DNA of 64,000 nucleotides from Allocoprobacillus halotolerans (lineage in GTDB: Bacteria > Bacillota_I > Bacilli_A > Erysipelotrichales > Coprobacillaceae), in assembly GCF_024399475.1 (NCBI RefSeq), contig NZ_CP101620.1, positions 2,213,608 through 2,277,607 on the forward strand. Direction: 5' to 3'. Below are positions 18,420 to 37,207 of this stretch, piece by piece. The notes under the pieces are model-generated. The model did no database searches. It had not been told where the DNA came from and was given only the letters and a program-made list of their open reading frames with translations. The position numbers were made by a program, and so were the translations under genes. Numbering within the stretch: position 1 is the stretch's first letter; each line of letters starts with the position of its first letter.

Positions 18420-20104
18420 CAATGTCATTAAGTTAAAGGATAGTATGCAATCATAACGATTAAGTTAAGGTATCAATTCAATTGAGAGTTGGTACCTTTT
18501 AGAATATTTCGAAACTATAAACTTATTTTATCTATTTCATGCGCACTCGAAAAGAACTAAACATTTAGCTCAAAAAATTTCTTGTTATTCTAAAATAACG
18601 TGCTATAATGAATCATGTCAGGACGTTCTATTATTAAACGGTTTGACTGATTTCGGTTTTATAGAACGTTTATATGATCTTTCTGGTCGTTCAGGGACCA
18701 GAAATTTTTTTATTCTTGAAACAAGAACATCTTCTTCCAATAGATCCCTGAGATACAATCGTATGTTTGTCACTGCATTGGCAAAATTCGCCTTGTAGCG
18801 GTATCTGCAGTTCTGTTTCATCTCGATATTATTGATGATGATTTCAGAAACATTATACATCAGGAATGTTGCATTGATTTCCTGCTGGATCAGCTGTCTT
18901 TTTCTTGCATGGAAATAAATCATTCCAAGTGTATTCTTTACCTTATTGAAGGCTGTTTCCTCATTCCAGCGAAAGTGGTACAGCTCCCTGAAGTCATCAA
19001 GCGAAAATTCATCTTCGCTAAGGTTCGTGATGATTGTCACATAGTTGTTTTCAGTGGCTTCGAAACGTACGATGCGAAGTGTCATTTCATAATAATCCTG
19101 AGTTGGACCCAAAAATCAAATTTGGATGTAGAAGGAACAAAGACATATTTTTCCTTGTTGGCTTTTATTTCCTTTGTCTGAAGTCTTGTCAATGTGCGTG
19201 TGACAGTCATGTCAAAAGAGCCTTCAGGTGTAGATATGTTTGTCATGATGCCACTTTTTGTATTGATATCCTTGACACGAATGGCGAACTTGAGATTGTT
19301 TTCAATGAAATGGGCAAACAGATTGTAATTCTCATAGCCACGATCAGCAGTAAATATAGCATTTCTAGGATAATGCCCATTATTGATGATGGAGATGAGG
19401 GCGTCGCATTCCTGCTTTTTCGTTGCCGAATCAATACTCCAGTCGAGAAAGACGTGATTCAGGCAGTCATATAGAGCGTTGATATGATACTGACAGCAGG
19501 GGCTGCCAAGAGAGTTATAAAGAATTTTGGTATCATCATCCTCAAAAGGGATGTTGATGTCAGAACCATCCTGAGCCAGTATGCGATAGCCATTGATGGT
19601 GGCATAATTATCAAAACTTGACAGAAACAGCTGATTGATACGCTTAAAGATGACAGGATCCAGCAAACTTCTTCGCTGACAGAGAGCGGAAGGAGAAGGC
19701 ATATCCTTAATGTCATAAAAGAAGTTTGACATTTCACAGACAGTGGAATGACTGGAGAAGTTCATAATGCATTCGATTAGTGTTCTGGCAGTAATCTTGC
19801 GATTGCGGTAAAATTGGAAACGGGATCAGGGCAGTAGTTTTGGATGCCCTCAAGAGTAAAATCAATGGATTTGTCCAAGTTGTTTTTGATAATACTTGGT
19901 GAATAGTAGATGTTAGATTTTGATTGATTCAACATGATAAGTACCTCCTAAAAAACACATCTACTAAAAAGGGCTAAAAATTATAGAACATTATAATTTT
20001 TAGCCCCACAAACCTTTCAGTTTGTCAATAGAAAAATAAAAAAGAGCCTCAATATTTTAGAAATATCAATATTGAGGTTCTTTAGGCTTAACTTAATGAC
20101 ATTG
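18420..20104 (-). mobile_element. IS4-family insertion sequence, 1.69 kb
   Basis: Bounded by perfect 17-base inverted repeats CAATGTCATTAAGTTAA (18420-18436, and its complement at 20088-20104). It encodes one transposase on the reverse strand. A stem-loop with AATATTGAG arms (20045-20080) lies inside the right end. I see no clear target-site duplication. It truncates the XRE gene at 18419. Confidence 0.8.
18618..19935 (-). CDS. IS4-family transposase, two frameshifts
   Basis: DDE transposase starting at the ATG at 19935 (MLNQSKSNIYYSPSIIKNN) after GGAGGT. Acid motifs are in LAQDGSDINIPFED and FTADRGYENYN; the YREK signature is YHFRWNEETAFNKVK. The frame breaks at a GG pair (19807-19808, one base short) and an A5 run (19111-19115, read as T5 on the coding strand). 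Restoring one base at each gives a single ~439-residue protein, so the gene was probably intact in the cell. Confidence 0.8.
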
Positions 20105-20247
20105 GAAAAAAGGTAGACATTTTATTCCATTAAAATGAGAAGTTTTTCTAAATGGAATAGCTATAAAACTTCTGTTTTTCTTCATATTTTAAGAAGTAAA
20201 ATACAAAAACATTTCATATTATCTCAATTCTTGATTTTATCACTACT

Positions 20248-20273
20248 GGTAACAAAAGTCTGCTTTTCTTACC
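20248..20273. other. Putative recombination site A upstream of the surface-protein gene
   Basis: Imperfect palindrome of GGTAACAAAAGT, core CT, and GCTTTTCTTACC. It shares its 12+2+12 layout and right half with sites B (23703) and C (28940). Its core dinucleotide (CT) differs from theirs (AC/GT), so exchange with B or C should be poor. The rest of 19936-20331 holds the IS end and the leader of the surface-protein gene. Confidence 0.5.
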
Positions 20274-20331: not shown

Positions 20332-22911
20332 GTGAATTTAACAAAGAAGATCGTTGCTTGTTTTCTTGTATTAGTTATGGCGTTGGGATTGATAAAACAG
20401 ACTATATATGCTGTAGAGATTGAAAACTCTCCTCTACAAAAAGAGATCTTACAAAATGAAGATTTGTATGATAAAAAAATAACAGCTGATATTACAAATA
20501 TCAGTAATCCAACAGAGGTGTTCCAAGGTGATAACACAGAGATTGAATTTAGCTTTGTGATCAATGCCTCATTAGGAACATCGTTCGTTATAGGGGAAAA
20601 AATAGAAATTCCTACAAATGTAGGCGATTTATTTGATGCTAAATGGAATGAGGTGAATGCTCAAGAAATTAAAGATAGTGAAGGTAATATTTTAGCAACA
20701 GGACTGATCACGAAAGATAAAGTAATTTTTGAGATCAAAGAAGATTCTAATGGAAACAACGAATTATCTGGAATGATAAATTTTGCTACCCATTTCGTTG
20801 CTAAAGATGTTGGTGCATCAAAAGATAAAGATGTTGTAAAAGAATTGGTGATTGGTAATGCTAAAAAAAGTGTAACTTTTAAGTATAAGAATGAGGATAA
20901 ACCTACTGTTCAACCGGGATCTGTTGATATTGATACTTTCTGGAAAATAGGATGGTCAATGAATGATTATAAGGGTGCAGGAATTGGACTTGAAGTAAAT
21001 CCGATTGGTTCTATGGACTTATATGGATCCACTTCATATAATGATAGAAAACCCAAGATACATGATACATTTTTTGTCAAAGATATAATTCCAGAAAATG
21101 GATTTATCAATCCAAGCAGTATGAAAATATATGCAGCAGTTCCCAGATTAGTTAAAAGTACAAGTGATACTAAATTTAATGGCTGGTACGACGTTCCTGA
21201 AGGAACATACTATGCAGGGAGACAAGGTACGCAAAGATATCTCATAAATGAGCGTATGCAGCGTTTATATCAGCAAGAAAATGAAACATATGAGGATTTT
21301 GAAGCCAGGGTGAAAAACATCTCACTTAGCTGGGGGATTTATGAAGATTCAGATAAGATTCAAACGTTTATTTGTAATTTTGGACGTATAGGCGATCCTA
21401 ATAATAATAACGGCATTATGTATAAAGATTTCGGTGTAGATAAATGGCCGGAGGCTGACCAAGTTAATATTTGGTCTGAAACAGGAGCTTCTGGAGGTAA
21501 TGTAGTTAGTTATTATATTGAATTTGATACTTATTATCCGGATGTTGAATGGAAGAAAGAAGTTACCAATTATGCTAGTAGAACATCTTATGAAAACAAC
21601 TCTTCTAAACCTAGCTCTAACGGAAACAGTGTTACCTATATAATAAACAATGGAGGGGGTATAGGAACTGTTAGAAAAAATGAGCTTACTATACAGCTGT
21701 TAGATGAAACTACAAAACAGCCGATTGAAAAAGCTGATTTTAAACTTCAGCAATCAGTTGATAACCAGTGGATAGACACTGCTCTTAATGGTACCACAGA
21801 TACAAATGGTAAACTAACATTTGGCCCATTAAGTGATGGTAAATACAAGGTAGTGCAGACGAGTACAGCAGATGGATATTTGTTTGATAATACTACTTAT
21901 AGAGATAGCGACAATGATTTAGTAGGGAAACTTTCAAATACTGGAGAATTTACAGTTAGTGCCAGTGATAGGTTTGGATATGGAGCTATTGTAACTAATA
22001 AGAAACTGGATACCTATCATGTACTATATAAGTTTGTGAGCGGGAATGAAGGTAAAGGACTTCCAAAAGAAATTACAGATCAGTTACCAGAAGCAGGAAA
22101 TGTTGAGCACGGAAAAACAGCCAAACCATCAATAGAAACATTTACAAATGTAAAAGTAACAGATGGTGTATGGAAGTTCAAAGGCTGGACACCTGCTGAG
22201 TACGAAAATGTAACAGAAGATGTAGAATTTGTTGGGACATGGAAATTTGAGAAAAATGCAAGTATCATCAATAATATTCCGGCGATCAATGCGAATAATA
22301 AGACATTGACGGTTGGAGATGAATTTGATCCATATAAAGATGTAATGGCAACGGATAAAGAAGATGGAGATATTACAAAGAAAATTGAAATCTTAAAAAA
22401 TGAAGTTAATACAGGCAAAGCCGGAGTATATGAAGTTACATATAAAGTAACAGACAGTCAGGGTGTTTCTTCAACTAAGACAGTCTGTGTAACAGTTAAT
22501 CCAAAAATGGAAGACCTGAATGAAATTCCTGCAATCAGTGCAGATGATAAGACATTGACGGTTGGGGATGAATTTGACCCGTTAGAAGATGTAACAGCAA
22601 CGGACAAAGAAGATGGAGATATTACAAAGAAAATTGAAATCTTAAAAAATGAAGTTAATACAGGTAAAGCCGGAGTATATGAAGTTGCATATAAAGTAAC
22701 AGATAGCAAGAGCGCTTCATCGGTTAAAACGGTTAAGGTTACTGTTATAGAAAAAGATACACCAGCAGTTCCAAATGAACCAACTAAGCCCAATGATACT
22801 GGAAGTGTAGACACAGGTGATAAAACAAATATGAAATTATGGACATTACTGTTGACTGTATCATGCATTGGAGCTATCGGTGTATATCGAAAAAAACGAA
22901 AAACAAATTAA
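20332..22911 (+). CDS. Cell-wall-anchored surface protein with Cna-B, SHIRT and Ig-like repeats
   Basis: 859 residues starting at GTG 20332 after AAGGAGG. In order: signal peptide (KIVACFLVLVMALGLIKQ); a large unassigned N-terminal adhesin-like region (to ~430); a Cna-B/SpaA-like domain (LTIQLLDETTKQPIEKADFK...GPLSDGKYKVVQTS); a SHIRT-like domain (YHVLYKFVSG...WKFKGWTPAEY); two DUF5011-type repeats (KTLTVGDEFDP...DKEDGDITKKIE); and a sorting signal SVDTGDKT followed by a hydrophobic helix and KKRK. The anchor lacks a true LPXTG and resembles the VxTGD-type motifs common in gut Firmicutes. Likely an adhesin displayed on the wall. Confidence 0.82.
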   Translation: MNLTKKIVACFLVLVMALGLIKQTIYAVEIENSPLQKEILQNEDLYDKKITADITNISNPTEVFQGDNTEIEFSFVINASLGTSFVIGEKIEIPTNVGDLFDAKWNEVNAQEIKDSEGNILATGLITKDKVIFEIKEDSNGNNELSGMINFATHFVAKDVGASKDKDVVKELVIGNAKKSVTFKYKNEDKPTVQPGSVDIDTFWKIGWSMNDYKGAGIGLEVNPIGSMDLYGSTSYNDRKPKIHDTFFVKDIIPENGFINPSSMKIYAAVPRLVKSTSDTKFNGWYDVPEGTYYAGRQGTQRYLINERMQRLYQQENETYEDFEARVKNISLSWGIYEDSDKIQTFICNFGRIGDPNNNNGIMYKDFGVDKWPEADQVNIWSETGASGGNVVSYYIEFDTYYPDVEWKKEVTNYASRTSYENNSSKPSSNGNSVTYIINNGGGIGTVRKNELTIQLLDETTKQPIEKADFKLQQSVDNQWIDTALNGTTDTNGKLTFGPLSDGKYKVVQTSTADGYLFDNTTYRDSDNDLVGKLSNTGEFTVSASDRFGYGAIVTNKKLDTYHVLYKFVSGNEGKGLPKEITDQLPEAGNVEHGKTAKPSIETFTNVKVTDGVWKFKGWTPAEYENVTEDVEFVGTWKFEKNASIINNIPAINANNKTLTVGDEFDPYKDVMATDKEDGDITKKIEILKNEVNTGKAGVYEVTYKVTDSQGVSSTKTVCVTVNPKMEDLNEIPAISADDKTLTVGDEFDPLEDVTATDKEDGDITKKIEILKNEVNTGKAGVYEVAYKVTDSKSASSVKTVKVTVIEKDTPAVPNEPTKPNDTGSVDTGDKTNMKLWTLLLTVSCIGAIGVYRKKRKTN
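22276..22498 (+). repeat. DUF5011-type repeat unit 1 (in gene)
   Basis: First of two tandem units with a period of 249 bases (83 codons), nearly identical in DNA over long stretches. Encodes the NTGKAGVYEVTYKVTDS strand set. Confidence 0.8.
22525..22747 (+). repeat. DUF5011-type repeat unit 2 (in gene)
   Basis: Second unit, 249 bases after the first. High DNA identity means the number of units could change by recombination or slippage. Confidence 0.8.
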
Positions 22912-23043
22912 TATTTATAAACGGTTTAAGTCATCTTTTAAATAGAAAGTTGAAAAAATGCATATTTAACACTTTAAGGTGAAAGTTCTTTATGTGGTTT
23001 TTCATTTTATGATATTTATGCTTTTATTACTACAAGTAAATTT

Positions 23044-23082
23044 ATAATTCCTCCTATAAAGTTAATATATAGGAGGAATTAT
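23044..23082 (+). promoter_or_regulatory. Perfect hairpin sequestering the recombinase ribosome site
   Basis: ATAATTCCTCCTATA (23044-23058), nine-base loop, TATAGGAGGAATTAT (23068-23082): a perfect 15-bp stem one base before the ATG. The anti-Shine-Dalgarno TCCTCC pairs fully with AGGAGGA. A transcript containing the whole hairpin should be translated poorly. Confidence 0.85.
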
Positions 23083-23083
23083 T

Positions 23084-23683
23084 ATGATAAATAAATATGC
23101 ATATATTCGAGTTTCAAGTAAAGATCAGAATATTGATAGACAGGTAGAAGCAATGCGAGGAATAGGGATTCTAGATAAAAACATGTATATTGACAGGCAA
23201 TCAGGTAAAAATTTTGACCGCAAGCAGTATCAATCATTATTAAAACAATTAAAATCAAATGATGAAATATATATCAAGTCGATAGATCGCTTAGGGAGAG
23301 ATTATGATGAGATTCAGGAACAATGGCGATATCTTACAAAAATAAGAAACATTGATGTTATTGTTCTGGATTTGCCATTGTTAGATACAAGAAATCAGGT
23401 AAATGGAATTACAGGCAAGTTTATTGCGGATTTAGTGTTGCAGATACTTTCTTATGTGGCGCAGGTAGAACGCGAAAATATAAAACAACGACAAGCTGAA
23501 GGGATAAGAATAGCAAAAGAAAAAGGAGTTCGGCTTGGTCGACCACCCCTTCCTGTTCCAAAAGAATTTGATGAAATTTATAAATTATGGAAAGAAAATA
23601 AAATTAGTAAACGTGAAGGTGCAAAAATGTTGCATACAAATCATAATACATTAACTAATTGGATAAAAAAACATGAAAGTTGA
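23084..23683 (+). CDS. Serine recombinase (Pin/Hin-type DNA invertase or resolvase)
   Basis: 199 residues. The catalytic serine is in YIRVSSKDQNIDRQ; further family motifs are IKSIDRLGRDYDEI and VAQVERENIKQRQAEGI with GVRLGRPP at the hinge, followed by a C-terminal helix-turn-helix (ISKREGAKMLHTNHNTLTNW). Small serine recombinases of this size invert or resolve short DNA segments. It lies 20 bases before an inverted-repeat recombination site (B) whose partner C precedes the pilus operon, which suggests it drives that switch. Translation is likely damped by the hairpin on its ribosome site. Confidence 0.88.
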   Translation: MINKYAYIRVSSKDQNIDRQVEAMRGIGILDKNMYIDRQSGKNFDRKQYQSLLKQLKSNDEIYIKSIDRLGRDYDEIQEQWRYLTKIRNIDVIVLDLPLLDTRNQVNGITGKFIADLVLQILSYVAQVERENIKQRQAEGIRIAKEKGVRLGRPPLPVPKEFDEIYKLWKENKISKREGAKMLHTNHNTLTNWIKKHES

Positions 23684-23702: not shown

Positions 23703-23728
23703 TGTAAAAAAAGTACACTTTTCTTACC
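23703..23728. other. Recombination site B (left border of invertible segment)
   Basis: TGTAAAAAAAGT, core AC, ACTTTTCTTACC. Twenty bases (23710-23729) are an exact inverted copy of 28939-28958 at site C. Confidence 0.75.
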
Positions 23729-23772
23729 ATGTTTTTTAAGACATAAATAAACGACTTGTTAATTCTTTTAAT

Positions 23773-23801
23773 ATGATATTACATAATTTTCCAAAAATCA
23801 A
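23773..23801 (-). promoter_or_regulatory. Candidate switchable promoter between sites B and C
   Basis: Reverse strand: TTGATT (23801-23796), 17-base spacer, TATCAT (23778-23773). It points left, toward the recombinase tail. If the segment between the recombination sites were flipped it would point right, into the Rrf2-pilus operon. The remainder of 23684-23812 is AT-rich without genes. Confidence 0.5.
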
Positions 23802-23804
23802 TAG

Positions 23805-23812
23805 TCTGGTAA
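23805..23812 (+). repeat. Target-site duplication TCTGGTAA, left copy
   Basis: Matches 28937-28944 exactly. Generated when IS copy 1 inserted; its GGTAA is also part of recombination site C. Confidence 0.85.
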
Positions 23813-23980
23813 TTTGACTTTCGGTTTTTTGCATTCTTTTTTGAAGGGTATGTCTTGTTGTTTATTGTCATAACCCTTGTTTTCTTATCTATATCATCTT
23901 TTTTGTTTTTGTTCTCTTTTTATTGTAGCTGAAAAAGTGTCATTTTCATGACCTTTTTTATTATTTACTATATGTTCATT

Positions 23981-24121
23981 TTATAGTTTCAGTTGCAGCT
24001 GCCTGTATTCCTGCTTCTCTCTTATATTTTGAAACTCCTTGATTCCCTTTTGTGCATATTTTAATATTTCCTGTATCCCTTTACTGATCTGATAGCACCA
24101 GTAATATCTCTTTCCTTTAAG
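23981..24121 (-). pseudogene. 3' remnant of IS4-type transposase copy 1
   Basis: Encodes the tail GKRYYWCYQISKGIQE...REKQEYRQLQLKL seen intact in copy 2. It is cut off from the rest of the gene (27588-28796) by the nested transposon. The stop is at 23983-23981. Confidence 0.8.
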
Positions 24122-24255
24122 TGTTAAACCACAAATTCTGCGATAATGTTAACTGCAGATTAATTTATACTGATTTATCACGTCCTTTTATTTTTAACCG
24201 CAGATTATTTGCTACCTGCTGATGGATAGTAAGTGATCAATGAAAAAAGGATATA

Positions 24256-24597
24256 TCATATCGATACATCCTCATAGTTATATTGTTCAAATATACTTTT
24301 TATCGCGTATGCAATCCTTCTGCTTTCTAATTCATCATCTATATTATCATACACAGATTCCGTATTCCACATGATATCTGTTGGATATGCCAGTGGTATA
24401 AATCTATCCTGGTTTTTTCTTATGATTTTATCGTAGTAATGTATAAACAATTCCCATTCCCCCGCTATTACGTGCATCTGACACCTATATATACTTTTTT
24501 CTGTTTTTATGTTAAATGTATAATATGGTCTGATTTCTATGCAGTCGATCTCCCCAACCTGTTTTTTATTTTCTCTATCTTTATATATATAATCCAT
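24256..24597 (-). CDS. Unknown small protein of the nested transposon
   Basis: 113 residues beginning MDYIYKDRENKKQVGEIDCI. No motif I recognise; mixed charge, no membrane helix or signal peptide. It lies five bases after the ATPase stop on the same strand, so it is probably the last gene of the transposition operon. Its position suggests an accessory transposition or regulatory role, but this is inference only. Confidence 0.55.
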   Translation of the reverse strand: MDYIYKDRENKKQVGEIDCIEIRPYYTFNIKTEKSIYRCQMHVIAGEWELFIHYYDKIIRKNQDRFIPLAYPTDIMWNTESVYDNIDDELESRRIAYAIKSIFEQYNYEDVSI

Positions 24598-24602
24598 CTT
24601 TC

Positions 24603-25409
24603 CTATCCTATCATTAATTCCTTGCCTGCTTCCATGATCAGTTCGCTATCAATGATATCCTTTTTATAATGCATTCCTAATATCAGGCTCTTACTGATGA
24701 TCTGATTGAGTATCCTGACGGAGGTATTCATCAGTGTATAAAGTGTATGATAGCTTTCTTTTGTAAACAGGTCTGTTCGGCAACCGACCGATTCCAAACG
24801 TGATTCCACATAATTTTTTACTTCTTCTTCATTGAATCCTGTAAACGTATAATTCATATTGATACGTTGTCTAAATGGTTCCAGGACTTTAAGTCGCAGT
24901 GTTCTTATAAATTCATTCTGCCCTACGAATATCAGTGTACAGTAATCTTTTGAATCATAATCAAAATTCATAAGCATGATGAATTCTCTAAGCACTTCTT
25001 TTCTGAGAAATTGTGCTTCATCTATCGCTATAATGACTTCCATTTTGTTTTCTACTGTCAATCTTCTCAGTTCATCCTGGATAGCTTGAAACATCTTCGA
25101 CTTTTTTGTCATCTCTTCAAGCCCCAGTGCATCATTAAGCATTCTGTAAAAATCTATGGCTGTAATCGTTGTCATACAGATATAGATTACTACATATCGA
25201 TTGGGGTTGAGAGATTCCAATGTTTTTCTCAGACATGTGGTCTTTCCCATCCCAGGATTGCTTAAAAATACACCGATTCCTCTTGATTTGATGATAAATT
25301 CCAATCGGTTCGTCATCTGTTTAAAATCATTAGATTCATATAATGTTTTAATCATTGTATCTTTAGTAAATGGATTTCTGTCCATTCCGTAATACGTTGT
25401 CATTTCCAT
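24603..25409 (-). CDS. AAA ATPase, TniB/TnsC/ExeA-like transposition regulator
   Basis: 268 residues. An N-terminal GMDRNPFTKD as in ExeA-type ATPases, Walker A SNPGMGKTT and Walker B VIIAIDEAQFL are visible, followed by a sensor-like LIFVGQNEF. In Tn552/Tn7-like systems such ATPases bind target DNA and activate the transposase. The start overlaps the end of the transposase gene by 47 bases, indicating coupled translation. Confidence 0.85.
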   Translation of the reverse strand: MEMTTYYGMDRNPFTKDTMIKTLYESNDFKQMTNRLEFIIKSRGIGVFLSNPGMGKTTCLRKTLESLNPNRYVVIYICMTTITAIDFYRMLNDALGLEEMTKKSKMFQAIQDELRRLTVENKMEVIIAIDEAQFLRKEVLREFIMLMNFDYDSKDYCTLIFVGQNEFIRTLRLKVLEPFRQRINMNYTFTGFNEEEVKNYVESRLESVGCRTDLFTKESYHTLYTLMNTSVRILNQIISKSLILGMHYKKDIIDSELIMEAGKELMIG

Positions 25410-26703
25410 TAATAAATAATCTCCTCTCTTCTTGTCCTTCCGTTTTCAACCTTATCTGTCCTACTGATTGGAACTTTCTTTTTTCGGATATATCATACAG
25501 ATAGGTATTTTCAAAAGTTCTTGGATCATATCGAATGATTACCCTCATCCCGATATAAATGGACGGAACATCAAATAAAACATTTTCAATCAATACGGTT
25601 GAATCTCCATTTACCTTACGTGTCGTTTCATGCATGAACACATCGTCAAGCCAGGCTCTGTATTCAACGGATGATTTATTGGATAGCTGACATACCTCCA
25701 CGTCCTTCATATCGTACATGTATCTTTCCAATGGAGTGTGATTGTCGTGAATGTCATCCTTCAGTGAAGAATGAGGGGTACGGTTATATTCGTTAATCCA
25801 ACTTTTTAATCTCATATTGAGCTCGGTCAATGAATGATAATGGCTTCCATGATCCCCATTCATCCATCTCATCTTGATGGTAGAAAAGAACCTTTCAATA
25901 ACGGCCTTTCCTTCCGGTGAATAAGGTGGATTGTAGATGATTTTTGTGCCCAGCCTTGCTTCTATCTCCTTGGTGCTTTTATTTTTGTAGCTTGATCCAT
26001 TGTCAAGGATGATCATCTTACTTCTCCCATATCTTAGTACTGCATCATGCCATACCTTCTGAAAATTAACGGCATTATCATTAAAAAAGAATTCAGCACC
26101 AACTATCATTCTTGAATGATTATCGATGATGGCAATCAGATAAGTTTTTCTGTACTCACCGGCTTCATCAAAAATATAAAAGGTATGACAGGTATCCGCT
26201 TCATATCCATCACATGAATGAGCAAATTCCCATGTACGTCTTTCTTTTGTGACAGGTTTTGACCCATGACGCAATCCTGAATTTTTAATGTACCTCTGAA
26301 CAGTATCTACCGATACATCACCTACGTTGAGGAGCCCCTTTTCAATCATTCTTTCATAGATCATGACGCCTGTCACTTTAGGGAATTCCTTGATCATATC
26401 GCTAATAAAATCTTTATGGCGATTGTCCAGCTTCCTGACTCTTCCGGCATCCAGACGATCTTTAGGCATCAGTTCATCAAATCCACAATTTCTATAAATA
26501 TAAAGCCAATTCTTTAAAGTTACAGCAGAAAACTTTCTTCTGGTACCATCGGGCCAATCGACCTCATTCTTGGAAACACGCCTAAAATAGGCTTCAGCGG
26601 ATATATCCGTAAATGTAGCCGAAACGACAGGTGCAATAAGTGAAAATTTGACCTGTGCAACGAGTTTTCTGTACTCGTAACGATCAGTATTCTGTTTGTT
26701 CAT
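25363..26703 (-). CDS. DDE integrase-type transposase (rve/Mu-C family)
   Basis: 446 residues. N-terminal helix-turn-helix region, rve core with acid residues in YEADTCHTFYIFDE, IILDNGSSYKNKS and PEGKAVIERFFSTIK, then a Mu-transposase C-terminal beta domain (VLFDVPSIYIGMRVIIRYDP). This is the TniA/TnsB-like catalytic subunit of the element. Full length and unbroken. Confidence 0.88.
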   Translation of the reverse strand: MNKQNTDRYEYRKLVAQVKFSLIAPVVSATFTDISAEAYFRRVSKNEVDWPDGTRRKFSAVTLKNWLYIYRNCGFDELMPKDRLDAGRVRKLDNRHKDFISDMIKEFPKVTGVMIYERMIEKGLLNVGDVSVDTVQRYIKNSGLRHGSKPVTKERRTWEFAHSCDGYEADTCHTFYIFDEAGEYRKTYLIAIIDNHSRMIVGAEFFFNDNAVNFQKVWHDAVLRYGRSKMIILDNGSSYKNKSTKEIEARLGTKIIYNPPYSPEGKAVIERFFSTIKMRWMNGDHGSHYHSLTELNMRLKSWINEYNRTPHSSLKDDIHDNHTPLERYMYDMKDVEVCQLSNKSSVEYRAWLDDVFMHETTRKVNGDSTVLIENVLFDVPSIYIGMRVIIRYDPRTFENTYLYDISEKRKFQSVGQIRLKTEGQEERRLFINGNDNVLRNGQKSIY

Positions 26704-26792
26704 AACTTTTTACCTCCCAAAAAAGTATAGAACAGTGAAAATGATAAAGATATTTCCATCTTATTTATTTTTATATTCTAATGATCATCATT

Positions 26793-27419
26793 TCACGAAG
26801 GAGCAAATAATTTGCGGTCATATTGAAATAAAGCATGGGAACTCAAATCGTAGATATCATTCATGACATCCTCATAAAGATAAATCATTGAAACAAAAAA
26901 AGACATGCGGTAACTGTTTCTAAGCTGCATATAGTAGCGTAGATAGCACATGTATTTTTTGATCCATCTGTAGATTGTAGAAATAGATATTCCATATTTA
27001 TTTGAAACATCATTTACAGTCAATGAAGAATAAAATTTATCAAAAAGGACAGATAATATAAAAGGAATAGAATATTGGCAATGAGGCACAATGAAAAGAT
27101 GAGGAAGGACAGCATGAAAATGTTTGCAGTTTTCACAGTAAAGCACGGGAATCGAAACAGTTTCCTCAACAACGGCATTATCACGGAAAGTAATAAAATA
27201 GCGATCATAAGAGATAAAGAATTTAAAATTAGGTGACTTACATATATGATCATCATGGATATGAAACGCAGAGAGTTCCAGATGATTTAATAAAAAGGTT
27301 TCGAGAAGCTGAAATTCACTAGCAGAGAGAGAATGGTTAAAATTAATAGGACAAGTTTGAAAAATATGCTTGATTAAAACAGAAAATGATTGTACCATAG
27401 TAGCGGGTGGATTCATCAA
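26793..27419 (-). CDS. DUF6431-like zinc-finger/HTH protein
   Basis: 208 residues. A probable metal site (CENCKHFHAVLPHLFIVPHC) is followed by a helix-turn-helix segment (VNDVSNKYGISISTIYRWIK). I associate this layout with DUF6431 proteins beside DDE transposases in gut Firmicutes. Its role is undefined; as first gene of the transposon it could regulate transposition or choose targets. AAGGAG-type ribosome site not obvious. Confidence 0.6.
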   Translation of the reverse strand: MMNPPATMVQSFSVLIKHIFQTCPINFNHSLSASEFQLLETFLLNHLELSAFHIHDDHICKSPNFKFFISYDRYFITFRDNAVVEETVSIPVLYCENCKHFHAVLPHLFIVPHCQYSIPFILSVLFDKFYSSLTVNDVSNKYGISISTIYRWIKKYMCYLRYYMQLRNSYRMSFFVSMIYLYEDVMNDIYDLSSHALFQYDRKLFAPS

Positions 27420-27587
27420 AGATGAACCCAGGAGAAAAGATGAGATTGAGCCTGCAAAACTGAACCTATCTTTTCTCTTTTTCCTTTCTTAAGATTAAAA
27501 AAATCAGTCAAAATAAATAACACATAGAATATTATAAATCAAAAAACAGATAAAGGATATAAGAACTGCGGTTTCTAACGGCAAATC

Positions 27588-28796
27588 TTATATCCTTTTG
27601 ATTATATTAATCTGCGGTTTTTCATCTAAATTGATTTTGTAGAGTTTTCGGTTTAACACTTTAAGCGATTTGCTTCTCTCTATCATCTTTATGACCAGTA
27701 ATTTCTTGTCTACTTTCTCTGCCAACAGTGTTATATGCCCTATATGCATCATCAATATCGTATTCAATACATTTATTGATTTCATTGTCCTTACTCTTAT
27801 ATTTTCAAAACCGTACTGATTCTTTTTGAATCTGAATTTCTCCTCGATTCGCCACCTTGACATATATGCCCTCACTATCTTATGCACATCTCTTTTATTC
27901 CTGATCTCCCTATTCGTTAAAAGCATCATCGGTTTTTCTTCACTTAATCCATACACAATGACTAGATTTAATATCCTTCCCTTTTGTGATGGCAGTTCCA
28001 CTCTCGTATGTGATACATAGACTTCACTATCTTCCTTAGAAAAATACATGTTCATCTTAATCTTGCCTTTTCTTCTTTTGGCGATTTCTCCTACTTTCTT
28101 TGGCTTCCCTTTAAACAATAATGTTCTATTTTCTTTGAGTCTGATGATGAAATCATCTGCATTATGATTTTCATCTATGAAGTAATCATAAAATACATTG
28201 GCATCATATCCTCTGTCACATACAAATGTACATCTTTCAGGAATGAGAGATTTGACATATTTTATGCTCTTTATTGTTTCATCGTTCATTGACCTGAATC
28301 CTTCACTTTCAGTTGAATAGATATGGCTATACAAAGATATTGGATGATGTTGATCCTGTGTGAGGGCAGTTGCCTCACATACATGGTATCCAGGATAAAT
28401 GTCATCCTTAAGTGAGGAAGCATCCCTGACCATACAAAGATCTTCAAATTTTCTTCCATATTTTTTGATGATTTCACTGTTATCAAGTAAAATGATCCTG
28501 TCTTCGCTAAGATGCTTGATAACCATATCATTATAATTGGATTTCATTTGGTTCATTGCTTCATCATCAAATTGAGCCAAATGATTGGATAATCTGTCAA
28601 TTGTATAATTGAGCTTGATATTTTCATCAAGAGCTCTGGCAATATCGCTAAGTAGAACACTTTGACTTCTTGCAAGACCAAACATCATGTCCATGACAAA
28701 CTTGGCAGCAGGTTTATCAAGACTGTCTGATAATTTATTAGAAAAATTGACAATTTCTCTTTTCGTTTCATATAGATCTGTGGTAAAATAACTCAT
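27588..28796 (-). CDS. IS4-family transposase copy 1, C-terminus replaced by transposon sequence
   Basis: 402 residues, starting MSYFTTDLYETKREIVNF after AGGAGGG. Acid motifs in IILLDNSEIIKKYG and TFVCDRGYDANVF, and a YREK-type signature YMSRWRIEEKFRFKK. Residues up to RSKSLK match copy 2; the rest (VLNRKLYKINLDEKPQ...) is read from the nested transposon end. Catalytic residues are present, so activity cannot be excluded, but the native tail is lost. Confidence 0.85.
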   Translation of the reverse strand: MSYFTTDLYETKREIVNFSNKLSDSLDKPAAKFVMDMMFGLARSQSVLLSDIARALDENIKLNYTIDRLSNHLAQFDDEAMNQMKSNYNDMVIKHLSEDRIILLDNSEIIKKYGRKFEDLCMVRDASSLKDDIYPGYHVCEATALTQDQHHPISLYSHIYSTESEGFRSMNDETIKSIKYVKSLIPERCTFVCDRGYDANVFYDYFIDENHNADDFIIRLKENRTLLFKGKPKKVGEIAKRRKGKIKMNMYFSKEDSEVYVSHTRVELPSQKGRILNLVIVYGLSEEKPMMLLTNREIRNKRDVHKIVRAYMSRWRIEEKFRFKKNQYGFENIRVRTMKSINVLNTILMMHIGHITLLAEKVDKKLLVIKMIERSKSLKVLNRKLYKINLDEKPQINIIKRI

Positions 28797-28936
28797 GGAA
28801 AATCCCTCCTAAATTTTGTTTATTGATCTAAAATTATTATAACATTTAAGAGGTTGATTTTCCTTATAAATAAAGCAAAACAGGCAATTTGTGAATAACT
28901 TTTTACCTGTTTTTTATTTTTTTACCGAAACTCAAA

Positions 28937-28944
28937 TCTGGTAA
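28937..28944 (+). repeat. Target-site duplication TCTGGTAA, right copy
   Basis: Exact match to 23805-23812; forms the start of recombination site C. Confidence 0.85.
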
Positions 28945-28965
28945 GAAAAGTGTACTTTATAAACC
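28940..28965. other. Recombination site C (right border of invertible segment)
   Basis: GGTAAGAAAAGT, core GT, ACTTTATAAACC. Inverted relative to site B; read on the other strand its core is AC, the same as B, as serine invertases require. It lies 85 bases before the first gene of the pilus operon. Confidence 0.75.
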
Positions 28966-29050
28966 ATTAAATAAAAATATAAAAAGTTCTTTTATTTTTC
29001 ACGGAATATATACCATGACTTGTCAGGCTATAAAATATGGGAGGAATTAT

Positions 29051-29452
29051 ATGCAACTAAACATGACAACAGACTACGCGATTAGGATTGTTTTATATCT
29101 ATCTAGATCAGAAGGGAAATTAACATCAAAAGAGCTATCAGAAAATTTGTGTATCCCTCAGCATTATATATTAAAAGTAACTAAAAAATTAGAAAATGGA
29201 AAATTGATAAATGCATATAATGGAAAAAATGGAGGTTTTTCCATTGCGAAAGACAAAGCACAGATTAGTTTATTAGATATTATAAAGTTGACGGAACCTA
29301 CCATCAAGATAAACCGATGTTTAGAATTAGATAAGTATTGCAATAGATGTGCAACAGAATATTGTTCTGTTAGAAAAACTTATTGTTTTCTTCAAAAAAA
29401 TATGGAGGAAAGATTATCTTCAATTACTATTGAAGAAATATTGAATCAATAG
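29051..29452 (+). CDS. Rrf2-family transcriptional regulator with cysteine cluster
   Basis: 133 residues. Rrf2 winged helix: MTTDYAIRIVLYLSRSEG, then SKELSENLCIPQHYILKV and NGKNGGFSIAKDKAQISLLD. Cysteines at 90, 97, 100, 105 and 112 crowd the region where IscR/NsrR bind an Fe-S cluster. I choose ATG 29051, preceded by GGGAGGAATT, over an earlier ATG at 29015 with no ribosome site. It sits 24 bases before the adhesin gene as the likely first gene of the pilus operon, so it may tie pilus expression to redox or iron state. Confidence 0.85.
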   Translation: MQLNMTTDYAIRIVLYLSRSEGKLTSKELSENLCIPQHYILKVTKKLENGKLINAYNGKNGGFSIAKDKAQISLLDIIKLTEPTIKINRCLELDKYCNRCATEYCSVRKTYCFLQKNMEERLSSITIEEILNQ

Positions 29453-29475: not shown

Positions 29476-32400
29476 ATGAAAAAGAGAAAAGTGAAAGATT
29501 TATTATTATTGTTGTTATGTTTAGCAATAACATTCTCTTCAGTTACAGTATATGGATTTTCAGAAACAAATATATATGCTGAAGTAAATGAGGGTGAAGA
29601 TCATATTGTTCCAGTTGAACTATCTAAGGACTATTCACATTTATATAAGGACGAAGCAATTCATATTTATAATCTTGAACAATTAAAAGCTGTAGGTACG
29701 AATCAAAAAGTAAAAGATTTAGATGAGACAAAAGATGGTTTTGGTTTGGGAAAAGATATTGTTGTTGCTAATCAAACAATCACATATGCATTAGACGCAA
29801 CTTATATATTAGAAAATGATATTGCATTAAATGGAGAAAAATGGAATTTGCCAGAAGGGTTTAATGGTTCTTTTATTCATAAACAGGAAAGTGAATCTCC
29901 TCAATTATATGATGAAGATACAGATACTATTTACCTATATAATTCCTACCAATTAGATTTGATAGAAAGTGATAAAGCTTCCTTGGAGCCTATATTATCA
30001 TTCGATTATGATGTAACTCAATTTGGAAAAGGACAATTGATTTATCCGAATGATTCACAAGAGTATCTAACATATAGCAATGAACATAATTATGTTCTTT
30101 CAAAAAACTTCACTGCTTTACGTCCTGCCACTGAGGCAATCAAAGTACAAAAAGAACAAGAAGAAAAGAAACAAGAAATAGAGACTCTGCAAAATAGTAA
30201 ATGGGGAAATGCAGAGTTATCCGGTAGAGATTATATAGGACAGGTTTATAAAGAGTTAAACGGCGTTAAATATATTCTTGTAGGAAACAAACAACAGTTG
30301 GCTGCTATCGGATCAAATAAACAGGTGACACCAACATTGGTTCTCGCAAAAAACCTGGTCTTTTAAATCCCACGAACAAATACACACCTCTTTATCCGGG
30401 AGATGCGATTTCAAAACGGATATAACGTTGAAATTGGATAAATCGGATAGTATAAATTTTAAATACTTTGAAGGAAATATAACCGAATTGATGAATGTAG
30501 ATTTCTTAAACGAAAACGGTTTACTAGGTAGTGTTAACGATATTTTAGGAGGCTTGTTAGGGAGCTTATTGGGAGGAGATCATGAAATTTTAGGTTATGA
30601 TAGTCAAAATGGAACATATATTTCAGAATCAACTTTAAAATCAGAATATTCAGGTTTAAAGTATTCTAGTGATGCGAATTATATTATTTTTAGAGATATT
30701 GACTTGAATAATGTTGATTGGAAGCCGTTGATGTTTAGTGGCACAATGGTCGGTGCTGTTTCTGAAGATAGCAATGCTGAAAGTACTTTATGGAAGGATG
30801 GCGGAATCGTAAATACAAGTCAGCCTGTCATTTCTAATATTACAGTGAATCAAACTTCTCCGATTGACATAAAAAAACAATCAGGAGTGGGCTTTTTGGA
30901 AGTATCATGTCAAAGTCTACGAAAACAATGGGTGTCGCTGGTCATCATGTTTCTGTAAAGAATATAAAACTTCAAAATATTTCCGTGACAAATGCAACTA
31001 GTGATATTGTGGATCATAGAGGATTGATACAAGGACTTTTAGATATTTTGAAGCCAATTTTAGGCGGTTTGTTAGGAAATCTTGGAGATGTGTTAGGAAA
31101 TTTACTAAATCCTAATGGCGATGGAGATCCAAGCGTTTTTGCGACCGGTTCATTTGCAGGTAGAATTAGTGGTGATGTATCTGTTGAAGATTGTGTTGTA
31201 GAAAATGTAATAAAGATAAGTAATGTAAATGACTTAACCGGTGGCTTTGTAGGGCATGTTGAAGGAATTACGGAATATGGAAATTTACAGGATGCTTTAG
31301 GGGATGTAACAACTATTTTAGAAAAACTCTTAAATATTATTCCATTTGTAGATTTAGGTACATTGATTGAGGTACTTTTAGATGGAAACATTATTGATTT
31401 AAGTAAGCTTATCCCGACAGGCTATAAAAGTCCAATCATTTCAAATTCTCACCTTGATAACAGTGGTAAAGATTTATCCGTTGGAAATACAGCATATAAT
31501 TTTCAAGGTGGTTTTGTTGGAAAAGCAGTTGGAACACAAATCAAAAATTCTTCAATCAAAGCAAACAGCTTAGCTGTAGCAGGAAAGAATATGGCAGGTG
31601 GATTTGCAGGATATAGTGCAAATGCCGAATTGGTGGGTGTATTAAATGGTTTAGGTATAGAATTGTTTAATGCATTCCAGCTGAATACATTCTTATTAAA
31701 TTGTCGTGTAGAAACCAAGAACTTAAATGTTCAGGCAAATGAAAGCTATAGTGGCGGTATCAGCGGTGCATTGGCAAACAGCTTTATTGTTGATGGTACT
31801 GTATCTGGAACAATCAATATTACAGCTCATTCTTATGCTGGTGGAATAAGTGGGATTGCGGCTTTAGGGCAATCTATTGCGTTAAAAGATTTTTATACCG
31901 GTAGAAAAGACTTAACGGGATTATTGGGGAATTTACTAAGTGGACTATTAACGCAAGATCAAGAAAACGTACTACTGTCTTTAACAGGTATTAGTCCAAG
32001 TGTTTTAGCTGGAAATGAAATAACAGGTTCGTTAACGGTGAAAGCAAAAGATAAGTATGCCGGAGGTATGGTTGGTCAAGGCGATGGAGTTAAAATTATT
32101 TCTTCTTCTGACTTAGAAACAAAATCCTATGTTTGGAAAAATCTTATCGATAAATTAAATTACACAGTATTAGGAAGAAAAAATACAATATCTAATTTAA
32201 AAGAAATTTCCGTTCAAGCTTGTAGTGGTGGAGTCATTGGAGAAGCAAAAACAGCAAGTGCCGGGGGACTCTTAAATACAACTTTAGGAATCGGAAATTT
32301 CTTAGGATTTGAAATTGAAAATATAACAGTATCGAGCATTGATACACCGGGAATTATTCATGCAACCCAGGATTATGCCGGTGGTTTTGCAGGTAAAGCG

Positions 32401-35400
32401 ATGGGTGGAAAAGTTTCGAATGTGCAGATCAGTGAACTTCAAAAAGTGGAAGCAAACAATTATGCCGGAGGATTTGTAGGCTATGGTGGAACCGGAAGTT
32501 TAGCTGAAACCGGGGCATTGAATATACTTGGTTTAGTTAAAATATCAAACCTGCTGAATCTAGCACAAGGACTTGTATTAGATATTAACGAATGTAATGT
32601 AAAAGGAACACTAAACGGATTTACAGTGAAGGCATTAGGAAGACGGACATCGGATGCTGATGTAACAAAACATTATGTTGGTGGGTTTATCGGAAAATCA
32701 ACAAGTGTACACATTCGCAATTCTCACGTAAAAACATTAAAAAATGTAACAGCTGATGAGATAAGCGGATATGCCGGTGGTTTTGCAGGTGCAACGGAAA
32801 CCGGAGGCTTAGCCGATGCTGCTAATAAGGATACAGAGGCATTAAAGCTTTTAGGAATCGATGGCTTATTGAATGCTGTTCCATATCTGGTATCTGATTT
32901 TAAAAACACAACAGTGGAGTATCAGCCGGAATCTGAAGAGGCTGTACAGGTACGTGCAGCGTATGCCGGTGGCTTTATTGGAGAAATGCAAAGTGGAAAT
33001 ATAAATAACAAAGATTTAGAGAATCCATATGCAGTATCGAATATATTCCATGTCCAAGGTACATATTATGCCGGTGGATTTGGTGGAAAGATCTATTCAG
33101 GTGGGTTAGCGACAGCCGGTGATTTATCCATTTTAAATGGACTCTTAAATATTAATGCCAGTAACCTGTTAAGTGTTTTAAATGTTTATATCCCAATCAT
33201 TCATTCAGCAGGCGTTTCTTCAAAAGGACTTATTGTTGAAGTAACCGCAATAAATAAAGATGACAGCAATTCCGGTAGTGCCGGAGGTTATGTCGGATAT
33301 GGAAGCGATTGAAAATCAGCAACTCGCATGTTGAGAAGTTAAAACATACAACGGTCAAAGCACCAAGTGATTTAAATAGCAGTGATGGTTCTTCCTATTT
33401 TTCTGATCAATCAAAGTATGCAATCAAAGGATTGCGATATGCCGGAGGGTATGTTGGTAAATTAGATATAGGAAGCTCAGCTGCGTTAGGCTCGGGATTA
33501 GGTGTTCTTGGAGATATTTTAGGTTTAAATGATGTAACGCAAGCGTTGGATGTTGTAGCATCTCAAATTGAACATTCGAATGTTTCAGGTGCAGTTGGGG
33601 GATATTCCGTACTTGCGAACTTCAAAGATGGCAATGATTTACAAGGTCATGCCGGAGGATATGCCGGAGCGATTGATGGTTCATCACTTCAGGATTGCAA
33701 TGCTTATAATTTCGAATATATTATCGGTCAAGAAACAGCCGGTGGATATGTTGGAAGAATGCAACCGGGAGATGTGGCAAGCGTTGTAGGAGATGCCAAA
33801 ATATTAGGTGGATTGTTAAATGTTGAAGGAAATCTGTTGTCCGTTCTTCAATCGTTTATTCCGATGATATACAATTCAGAAACAACATCTGTTCCATGTG
33901 GTGGTGCAGTTCGTGCTGATGCTGCTAGTGATGGAATACGTGAAAGAGGATTGGCTGGTGGGTATGTTGGACATAACCTAGGTGGAAGAATCGAAGGAAT
34001 GTCTGACAGAGAATGGAATAACGAGAAACCTACGGCTTTAAAAGAAAATGCAGCAGTACGTATTCGAAATGTTTATGGATATGAATTCGCCGGTGGTTTC
34101 AGCGGTCGAACAGAAAATACAAATGTTGCAGATACCGGAAATCTGAATGTATTATTTGGTATTATCAATATCAGCAATCCACTGTCTGCACTTGGGGCTG
34201 TTTATTCTGCGGAAACAAACACAGCAGTATATGGTCCATTAAGAAAATTAACCGTTGATGTATGGAATGCTTGGGTTGGAGCAGTCGGAATCAATGGAGC
34301 ATACGGTCAACAACTACAAGAGATAGGTAAAGTAGATACGCAAGAACAGTTAAATGAAATTATTGAAAAATATGCTTATGGATATGATGTTAAGGCTGCT
34401 AGAGAAGTCGTTGGTACATTGGCAACCCAAGGTGGCAGTGCCGGTGGCTATGTTGGAAGAATGGACGGAGGAGTTGTAACTTCTGGACATGCACATGATA
34501 TAAAATTAGTTACTGCTTATCGAAGCAGTGGTGGATTTGTCGGTGAGATGTCAAGTGCCGGTGTAGCCAATGTCGGTGGCATTCAAATAGGAGATCTTGA
34601 TGTTGTAGGCTCCTTACCGGTGTTGCAGACATTCGTACCGGTAATCAATACTTCCTCTGCTTATGGCTATCGTTCAGGAGCAACGATTCTTGCGAACGGA
34701 ACGGATTTAAATAACCAGCAAGGTCATGCCGGTGGATTCGCAGGAATTATCATTGGTGGTCAAATTAAAGGAGAGATAGATGATTTCTGTTCCATTGAGA
34801 AATTAAAAACAGTCAAGGGAACAAATACAATCGGTGGATTTGCCGGAAGTATCCTTTCAGGAAGTGCTGCTGAAGTAAATGTTGGATCAAGCAGTGGTTT
34901 GCTTCCAATATTATTAAAGCCTATTTTAGGAAATCCGGATAAGTTAGCTTCTTTATTAAATGCAACGGTATCTACAATAAAATATGCGAAAGTAGATGCA
35001 TGGGATCCTTGGGGTATTACTATTGATGGAAGATACCAAGAAGGTAACGATCCAAACACACAATATACCTATGCAAGTGGCGGTTTTGCAGGAAATATAA
35101 GTGGAGCGGTAGTAGGAGATAAAGATAGCAATCAAGATTCATTGATTGTAAACAACGTAAGAAAAGTAATCGGCGGGGAACATGTCGGAGGTTTCTTTGG
35201 ACTAGCAGATGTGGCAGCCGTCGCTGAAGTAGGAGACAATGCATCAAATGGTATTTTAGGTCTCATTAAGCTTGGTGAGTTGGATGTACTGGATGCTTTC
35301 CGAACGTATATTTATCATGCATCAGTGCGTGGTTCAACGGAGAATGGACTAAGCGTTAATGCCAATACCCAAAACGAAGCAGGAGCATTTGAAAACATAG

Positions 35401-37207
35401 TACAAACAGGAAATGCCGGTGGTTTTGGCGAAGCTTATTAAATGGGTCTGTAAAAAATGCAAGCGTTACGAATCTGAATCAAGTGAATGCATTGAATTAT
35501 ACCGGTGGTTTCATCGGGCATCTTGGAAAAAGCGGTGTTGTTGATTTAGATAAAGCAAGCACCGGAGGAGCACTTAGTGGCTTATTAAATGCCACAGCTG
35601 GTGTGTTGGATAACTTTGGTTCACATTGCGATCATTGTAAGGTTGAAGGAATACAAGCAGGCTTTATTGTCAATTCAAAAAATGGAAAAGAAAGCATTGC
35701 CGGAGGATTTACAGGACTTGCGGATCTTGCAAAAATAGATGATAGCCATGTTACAAATATCAAGAAAGTAAGTAGTGATCAAATTGCCGGTGGATTTGTT
35801 GGAAGAACGACATTCTCTTACCTAGCAGATATTGATGCAGGTTCCAACACATTGCTAGATCCCGTTTTGAGTATTGTAAATAAATTATTGGATTATTTAT
35901 ATATTGATAATTTAGAAAACTTAGGTGCAATTGATATAGGATTGGGAAAACTTTTAGAAGTCAAGTTGCTAAGTGATGGCAAAACACTTTCTGTAACTCT
36001 TCTAGGATTACCGATTTCGGTTGCTTTAGTAAAAAATAACGGAGATGGAACAAGTGATCTAGCCCAAATTCACATTGGAGACAGTTATATTGAGGTGCCT
36101 TGTACCAATACAGAGGGAAATCATATAAGCGAGGAAGATAAGAAAAATATCAATATTAGTCTAATTAAATCCAATCGTACAAGTATTAAACATTCTTCAG
36201 TTACAGGAATTTCAATTGGCTATGATGTTTTTGGTGGTGGTGCAAATGATGAAAAAGACGGTACACATGAAAAAGGTCATGCCGGTGGGTTTGTAGGATA
36301 TAACGATGAAGGATTGTTTGAAAATAATCAAATGTATTATGCAGATACCATTCGTGGTATTCGAGATAAGGTCGGTCCGTTCGCTGGTAAAACTTCTTTA
36401 GATTCAGCATACGATTTTAATACAGTTGAAAATATCGAAGGAAATCAGAATGGATATCGTGTTTATCGTAATCATAATGACTTAACTTCTCTTATAGTCG
36501 ATAGTAAAACGATAACTGCAGAATTATCCAATAAGAATTGGAATGAGTTTGTAATCTCACATATTAAAGATATAGATATATATGATAAGTTCAAAAATGC
36601 TATTCTTTCTAGCGTTGATATAACAGAAGATGCAGGGGTTTATGTTTCATCAGCGAAAGCAGTATTGATGGAAGATAAAAAAACATCAGAGAATGAGGAA
36701 AATTTATCCCCACCTCCATCTGATATGCAAGATCCTTGCGATGAGTTAATCAATTTAACAATCAACAAGATTTGGAAAGATTTTGGCAATTTTGAAAATA
36801 TTCGCCCAGCTCAAATCGAACTTCTTTTAACAAGAACATACAAAGAAAATGGTTCAGAGATTAAAGATGCACAATTTGAACAGACGATTATAGTAACACC
36901 ATCAGATGATATGCAAAATATATGGCGAGAGACTGTGAAAGGATTAGAAGCCTATAAAGTATTAGATGATGGTACGCAAGCTTATTATACCTATCAATTA
37001 ACTGAAAAAGCGGTAGATGGCTATTCGACAACAATCGAGAGTTCAGAAGATGGATTCACTATTACGATTACCAATTCACATATTCCGTTTTTACCGGATA
37101 CAGGTGGGATAGGAACATTAGCATTTACCCTTATAGGAATGATAGGTATAGGAGCAGTATTGTATAGTTTAAGGAAAGGAAGAAAGAAAAATGAAAAATA
37201 TGCTTAA
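29476..37207 (+). CDS. Giant LPXTG pilus-tip adhesin with glycine-rich repeats, frameshifted
   Basis: Repaired length about 2578 residues. Signal peptide (KDLLLLLLCLAITFSSVTVYG), an N-terminal region, then dozens of YAGGFVG/SAGGYVG-type repeats resembling GLUG motifs and alternating with hydrophobic LLGGLLG-like spacers, a Cna-B-like domain near the end (LTINKIWKDFGNFENI...YQLTEKAVDGY) and an LPDTG sorting signal with helix and KGRKKNEK. The frame breaks at A6 30348-30353, near 30405, T5 30893-30897, G 33307 and G 35430; each is repaired by adding one base, and the repeat pattern continues across every junction. Overlaps the pilin start by 17 bases. Likely the ancillary/tip pilin. Confidence 0.85.

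Follow-up and report, generated by a model that had tools for sequence, protein, structure and literature searches.

A promoter-overlapping inverted repeat as a likely read-through lock on the putative DNA invertase of a surface-protein phase switch

Introduction

Several recombination enzymes are shielded from transcripts that enter their genes from outside. In IS10 and IS50, the promoter is reportedly placed so that only such outside transcripts have the whole hairpin. IS200 has two stem-loops, one of which stops impinging transcripts while the ribosome binding site is blocked by the other (PMC3196728; PMC12594629). Furthermore, in ISPpu9 of Pseudomonas putida, transposase expression is reported to be limited by secondary structure in the 5′ untranslated region that the transposase mRNA itself carries, with the involvement of two small RNAs (PMC8450116).

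Here we examine a 64,000-nt stretch of the genome of Allocoprobacillus halotolerans (GCF_024399475.1, NZ_CP101620.1, positions 2,213,608–2,277,607, forward strand), referred to as the window. It contains a gene which resembles the transposases of IS10, IS50 and IS200 in that a recombination enzyme is encoded and that the ribosome site would be occluded by an upstream complement. In this case, a perfect inverted repeat precedes the gene of a small serine recombinase. We consider it likely, on balance, that this repeat shields the invertase of a phase-variable surface protein from read-through, in the manner of a lock.

The recombinase and its phase switch

The recombinase gene (23084–23683, plus strand) encodes 199 amino acids and adjoins an inverted-repeat switch, and its product is presumed to be a promoter-switch invertase. 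Residues 5–149 match the resolvase N-terminal catalytic domain (PF00239, E 7.5e-26). The nearest solved structures are those of Tn552 Bin3/Sin and gamma-delta resolvase, and the individual matches (2r0q, 6.6e-29; 1zr2, 1.2e-18; 3uj3, 2e-11) are to Sin-, gamma-delta- and Gin-type enzymes. The Mpi-family model NCBIfam NF009949 scored 47.5 bits, below its cut-off of 272, which leaves the enzyme outside that family. The gene layout is that of the promoter-switch invertases: inverted sites adjoin the gene and the segment flanked by them lies upstream of a target gene. Judged from this layout, the recombinase looks like the invertase of such a switch, and it probably controls whether a surface protein of the bacterium is made.

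The left inverted repeat of the switch (AAAGTACACTTTTCTTACCATGTTT) occupies positions 23710–23734 and the right one, which is 92% complementary to it, positions 28934–28958 (both plus strand). Each repeat is 25 nt long, and 5,199 nt separate the two arms, compared with 77 nt in the 91% homologue L100. This spacing is due to intervening transposition genes (24256–28796, minus strand) which encode an AAA ATPase, an rve/Mu-type transposase and a DDE_Tnp_1 transposase. About 5 kb of transposition (IS) genes thus interrupt the phase switch (23710–28958).

Downstream of the switch lies a gene for an Rrf2-family regulator (29015–29452, plus strand; PF02082, 1e-28) with a likely start at ATG 29051. 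The gene order is the same in L100, and an Rrf2-family regulator is found between switch and adhesin in the window, in L100 and on the plasmid pGTC3. In the window, it is followed by surface-protein fragments which extend to 37207 and finish with an LPXTG end, by pilins and by a class C sortase. The fragments belong to a GLUG/Cna_B surface protein (29476–37207) whose gene is disrupted, by either decay or sequencing error, so that it now spans about five reading frames. Its counterpart in L100 is a single open frame of at least 1446 amino acids.

On the other side of the recombinase gene, a co-directional gene encodes a surface adhesin with Ig-like, SHIRT and SpaA domains (20332–22911, plus strand). 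This gene ends at 22911, 172 bp upstream, and is the presumed source of read-through; a terminator scan of the plus strand between adhesin and recombinase found none. The adhesin gene is itself preceded by a second switch-like region (GGTAGACATT ... AAAAGTCTGCTTTT, 20110–20267), which has no adjacent invertase gene and whose middle is inverted relative to locus L005 of Amedibacillus dolichus. A split transposase-like ORF pair (18618–19765) is located upstream of this region.

The inverted repeat at the recombinase start

The repeat search revealed two arms on the plus strand which are complementary at 15 of 15 positions. The left arm (ATAATTCCTCCTATA, 23044–23058) is the anti-Shine-Dalgarno (SD) strand and the right arm (TATAGGAGGAATTAT, 23068–23082) contains the SD sequence AGGAGGA at 23071–23077. 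They enclose a 9-nt loop (AAGTTAATA, 23059–23067) which differs among homologues, and a single base separates the right arm from the recombinase ATG at 23084. The search hence bears out the description in an earlier note on this DNA, made from the sequence alone, of a 15-bp hairpin with a nine-base loop ending one base before the ATG.

The 121-nt leader folds with −24.5 kcal/mol, against −15.1 ± 3.0 kcal/mol in dinucleotide shuffles (z −3.1), and one shuffle in 200 matched its stability. When leaders of 44 nt are compared, that of the recombinase (−18.5 kcal/mol) is the lowest among the window's 33 SD-bearing ORFs (mean −4.3, sd 3.8); the next-lowest leaders reach −12.1 and −11.2 kcal/mol and have their main stems upstream of their SD. 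Randomly swapping the ten bases behind the −10 box described below for AT-rich sequence gave an equally stable fold in 0 of 2000 trials. Across the entire 2.93-Mb genome, the pattern TCCTCC-N3..30-GGAGGA occurs at 5 sites (2 for the reversed control), and a long perfect stem continues only at the recombinase leader.

A search of the leader against Rfam gave zero matches, and a terminator scan at the hairpin found none, the stem having no following T-run. The possibility that the repeat is itself an invertible element was rejected since the 9-nt loop is too short to form an invertible segment.

The promoter within the left arm

The hexamer TATAAT at 23043–23048 (plus strand) overlaps the left arm and is most simply read as the −10 element of the recombinase gene, because the box persists where the base of the stem is unpaired and in homologues which lack the hairpin. 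In the L079 group and in L092 the stem base is unpaired, yet the −10 box is still present, and xATAAT boxes also precede several hairpin-less homologues of 56–67% identity. Between the box and the presumed transcription start lies a tract of seven pyrimidines within the left arm (23049–23055, plus strand), so that the SD complement occupies the seven bases directly behind the −10 box. The first purine past this tract, at 23056, is the likely start, a position suggested by the −10 box alone.

The same arrangement recurs among the aligned leaders of homologues with at least 67% identity. A −10-like hexamer is located 34–38 nt before the ATG in 15/16 of them (TATAAT in most, AATAAT or CATAAT in two), and is followed by seven pyrimidines and then a purine. 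This purine, 8 nt past the box, is kept in all 15 leaders having the box. No −35 element is recognisable upstream of the −10 box of the recombinase, and the gene's own promoter is probably weak. The conserved −10 box within the left arm had been overlooked in the earlier note.

The position of the start has a large predicted effect on SD accessibility. For a read-through RNA with both arms, opening of the SD is predicted to cost 16.6–17.1 kcal/mol, whereas an RNA starting at 23055–23058 would require 1.6 kcal/mol. In the prediction, the upstream complement therefore sequesters the SD as in a lock against impinging transcription, and to this extent the hairpin hides AGGAGGA in any read-through transcript, as had been proposed. 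The read-through RNA was costlier to open in 15/15 leaders tested, by 2 to 15 kcal/mol; the gain is below 3 kcal/mol in L079 and L020. Homologues without the conserved hairpin show differences of 0 to 7.6 kcal/mol, some of them 6–7, so the members with weaker hairpins are not clearly distinct.

Taken as a lock, the leader would operate as follows. The −10 box of the invertase promoter would at the same time form the outer end of the left arm, and the bases between the box and the start point would encode the complement of the gene's own SD. Because the −10 box and the purine put the start inside the left arm, RNA from the gene's own promoter, starting at about 23056, should lack this arm, expose the SD and be translatable. 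RNA entering from the upstream adhesin gene would have both arms, fold and hide the ribosome site. The invertase level would be set by its own promoter only, and with it the flipping rate of the adjoining switch.

A start which probably lies inside the left arm also changes the role that the earlier note had assigned to the hairpin. Rather than a general brake on the recombinase level, it should be a device that acts only on RNA entering from upstream. Of the two circumstances which that note had held against its own proposal, a start inside the left arm is probably true, given the conserved −10 box, while a lack of conservation is not found.

Homologous loci

Recombinase homologues were gathered from genome contigs, whole genomes and plasmids. 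At 13 large homologous loci, the recombinase gene is followed after ~200–400 bp by the gene of a large protein, or by that of an Rrf2 regulator and then of such a protein; these large proteins mostly have a signal peptide. Most of the intervals between recombinase and surface protein contain inverted repeats around AAAGTAGACTTT / AAAGTCTGCTTT, and most loci have a co-directional gene upstream of the recombinase; L092 has a strong hairpin, yet no such upstream gene. In L100, the closest relative (91% identity), the order invertase, switch, Rrf2 and surface protein is intact. A cross-species comparison of the organism's own paralogue L002 with A. dolichus L005 shows the middle 165 bp inverted and both flanks collinear. 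The homology shared among loci begins near the −10 box and spans the recombinase, and in several pairs it extends to the switch region. Terminal repeats common to the homologous loci were not seen, which does not fit a recombinase gene carried as part of a transposable element.

Two further hosts may be mentioned. L092 is the Enterococcus faecalis conjugative plasmid pGTC3, which carries an invertase, a switch, an Rrf2 regulator and a leucine-rich surface protein; its invertase has its own version of the SD hairpin. The Extibacter muris genome contains four close invertase paralogues (L079, L083, L085 and L086) with an identical SD hairpin, each preceding a large signal-peptide-bearing protein.

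Conservation of the pairing

The expectation that conservation would be seen in homologous leaders is confirmed: a hairpin covering the SD is kept in about 14 close homologues with at least 68% amino-acid identity and is absent in more distant ones. Its hosts are Erysipelotrichales, Lachnospiraceae and one Enterococcus plasmid, and a related group of invertase genes in gut bacteria thus has the same hairpin arrangement. Among the 15 leaders with a −10-like box, 14 form the SD-covering hairpin and L080 does so weakly. The mean pairing z is −2.0 in the hairpin clade, compared with 0.1 and −0.15 (no excess) below 67% identity. A branch of the recombinase tree with moderate support (73/78) separates the hairpin group from the other homologues.

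Three types of pairing, in at least two registers, are found: CCTCCTATA/TATAGGAGG; CTCCTTTGT/ACAAAGGAG, which is shifted by two bases; and TCTTCCTT/AAGGGAGG on the Enterococcus plasmid. The two-base shift in register separates the L001 group from the L079 group. In L092, the variant SD AAGGGAGG pairs with the left arm TCTTCCTT at −16 kcal/mol (p = 0.0005). Random replacement of the ten bases past the −10 box gave p = 0.0005 in each of L001, L079 and L092, and p = 5e-14 for ten leaders combined. Permuting C and T inside the pyrimidine tract also gave a poorer fit to the SD than the actual order (combined p = 0.006). The leaders in both combined tests are related, and such p-values overstate the support because of this shared ancestry. 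Beyond the tract, bases of the upper stem match as well (TATA/TATA, TTGT/ACAA).

Tract changes within the L001 group are restricted to C/T exchanges which keep G-U pairs in the RNA and break the dyad in the DNA; the C-to-T changes of this kind are in the left arms of L002, L019, L020 and L077. The earlier note had looked to compensatory changes in the leader alignment, and these were not seen: at fixed columns of the 15-bp stem there is no two-sided compensatory change, and covariation is no better than in shuffles. The fixed-column count has this outcome because the pairing register shifts, and the case for conserved pairing comes from that shift and from the random-replacement tests. Some stems are weak, namely L019, L020 and L078 (about −7 to −10 kcal/mol) and L080 (−3.9 kcal/mol).

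Alternative explanations

Four other readings of the repeat were weighed. If transcription started upstream of 23043, the normal mRNA would contain the whole hairpin, and either the invertase would be kept constitutively low or the hairpin would be opened by a helper in the form of an RNA, a protein or a translating ribosome. The hairpin is very stable and conserved, which suits this idea, and the promoter assignment is incomplete as the −35 element is not visible. We nonetheless regard it as unlikely: the TATAAT-like box is kept without basal pairing in the L079 group and L092 and again in hairpin-less relatives, the expected start point retains its purine, no Rfam family matches, and the 17 kcal/mol needed for opening the SD would make unaided initiation negligible. 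The ligand or ribosome-stalling switch suggested previously gains no positive support, as Rfam gave no match and the loop is variable. It is more difficult still to regard the left arm as kept for its promoter sequence only, with the fit to the SD incidental and functionless. The overlap with the −10 box is what one would expect from such a history; all members have a pyrimidine tract that pairs weakly with any purine-rich SD, some stems are weak, and covariation at fixed columns is absent. However, the C/T order within the tract beats permutations, the upper stem matches outside the tract, and the SD variant of L092 has a left arm to match it. We hold a purely incidental fit to be distinctly improbable.

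A DNA operator, to which the recombinase or another regulator binds and represses the promoter, was among the earlier suggestions. A perfect dyad over the −10 box is indeed a suitable position for a repressor, but the C-to-T changes listed above break the dyad in homologues while keeping G-U pairs, the L079 group pairs in a register two bases away, and AAAGT-NN-ACTTT, the presumed recombinase site of the switch, does not occur in the leader. An operator is accordingly very improbable. The thermosensor proposed at the same time deserves hardly any credence. RNA thermometers generally have their SD in a hairpin, as here, and usually contain internal loops, which the perfect 15-bp stem lacks; moreover, the predicted probability of an open SD stays below 1e-9 across 25 to 50 °C, unlike that of a thermometer.

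Generality of the design

The arrangement can be written as a rule for sequence searches: TATAAT, then seven pyrimidines which complement the SD, a purine, and the SD itself. The pattern TATAAT-Y7-R-N8..22-GGAGG retrieved nine sites in eight genomes, all of them invertase leaders, and its reversed control none. With a loose pattern in 316 and 387 genomes, matches outside invertases were mostly background, and the reversed control matched too. In viral contigs, TATAAT-CTCCTT-AAGGAG was found in at least 120 stretches, while two permuted controls gave 77 and 76. Among the matches listed, 35 preceded a start codon with an ORF of at least 60 amino acids and so counted as real leaders, against 32 and 31 for the controls, and there is no clear enrichment.

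Two genes unrelated to invertases have a perfect SD complement directly behind TATAAT. At L178 (position 1043, minus strand), the complement CCTCCTTGT/ACAAGGAGG (−20.3 kcal/mol) precedes an ABC-transporter ATPase behind a MerR-like promoter. At L177 (position 1039), CTCCCTTGTA/TACAAGGGAG (−18.6 kcal/mol) precedes a GH3-like glycosidase. Both genes were named by eye from their sequences. An anti-SD coded in the promoter would allow only RNA from the correct promoter to be translated, and it is conceivable, though doubtful, that it generally keeps tightly controlled bacterial genes deaf to read-through. Beyond the invertase clade, generality of the design is a lead only.

Comparison with known systems

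In tandem arrays of phase-variable surface proteins, read-through from an adhesin gene that is switched on could drive the invertase next to it and thereby couple switches which should flip independently. With a lock in the invertase leader, transcription nearby would have no bearing on switching rates, and a device of transposons would be carried over to chromosomal phase variation. We found no report of a leader hairpin or read-through lock on a DNA invertase in the open-access literature.

With the Hin/Gin and Mpi promoter-switch invertases, the enzyme shares the resolvase N-terminal domain and a short C-terminal part as well as nearby inverted repeats and a surface protein as the apparent target. 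It differs from Mpi in its weak match to the family model and in that the nearest solved sequences are Sin and Tn552 Bin3. In contrast to ISPpu9, where the structure is part of the transposase mRNA itself, the invertase hairpin should be absent from the own-promoter transcript. Unlike in IS10, IS50 and IS200, the gene encodes no transposase but a small serine recombinase that belongs to a chromosomal phase switch, and it lies outside IS ends; in addition, its SD complement stands directly behind the −10 box. The invertase leader would work like the IS10/IS50 lock without belonging to that set. Transposases already provide the principle, and what is new is the gene class, a DNA invertase, together with the placement of the SD complement immediately after the −10 box.
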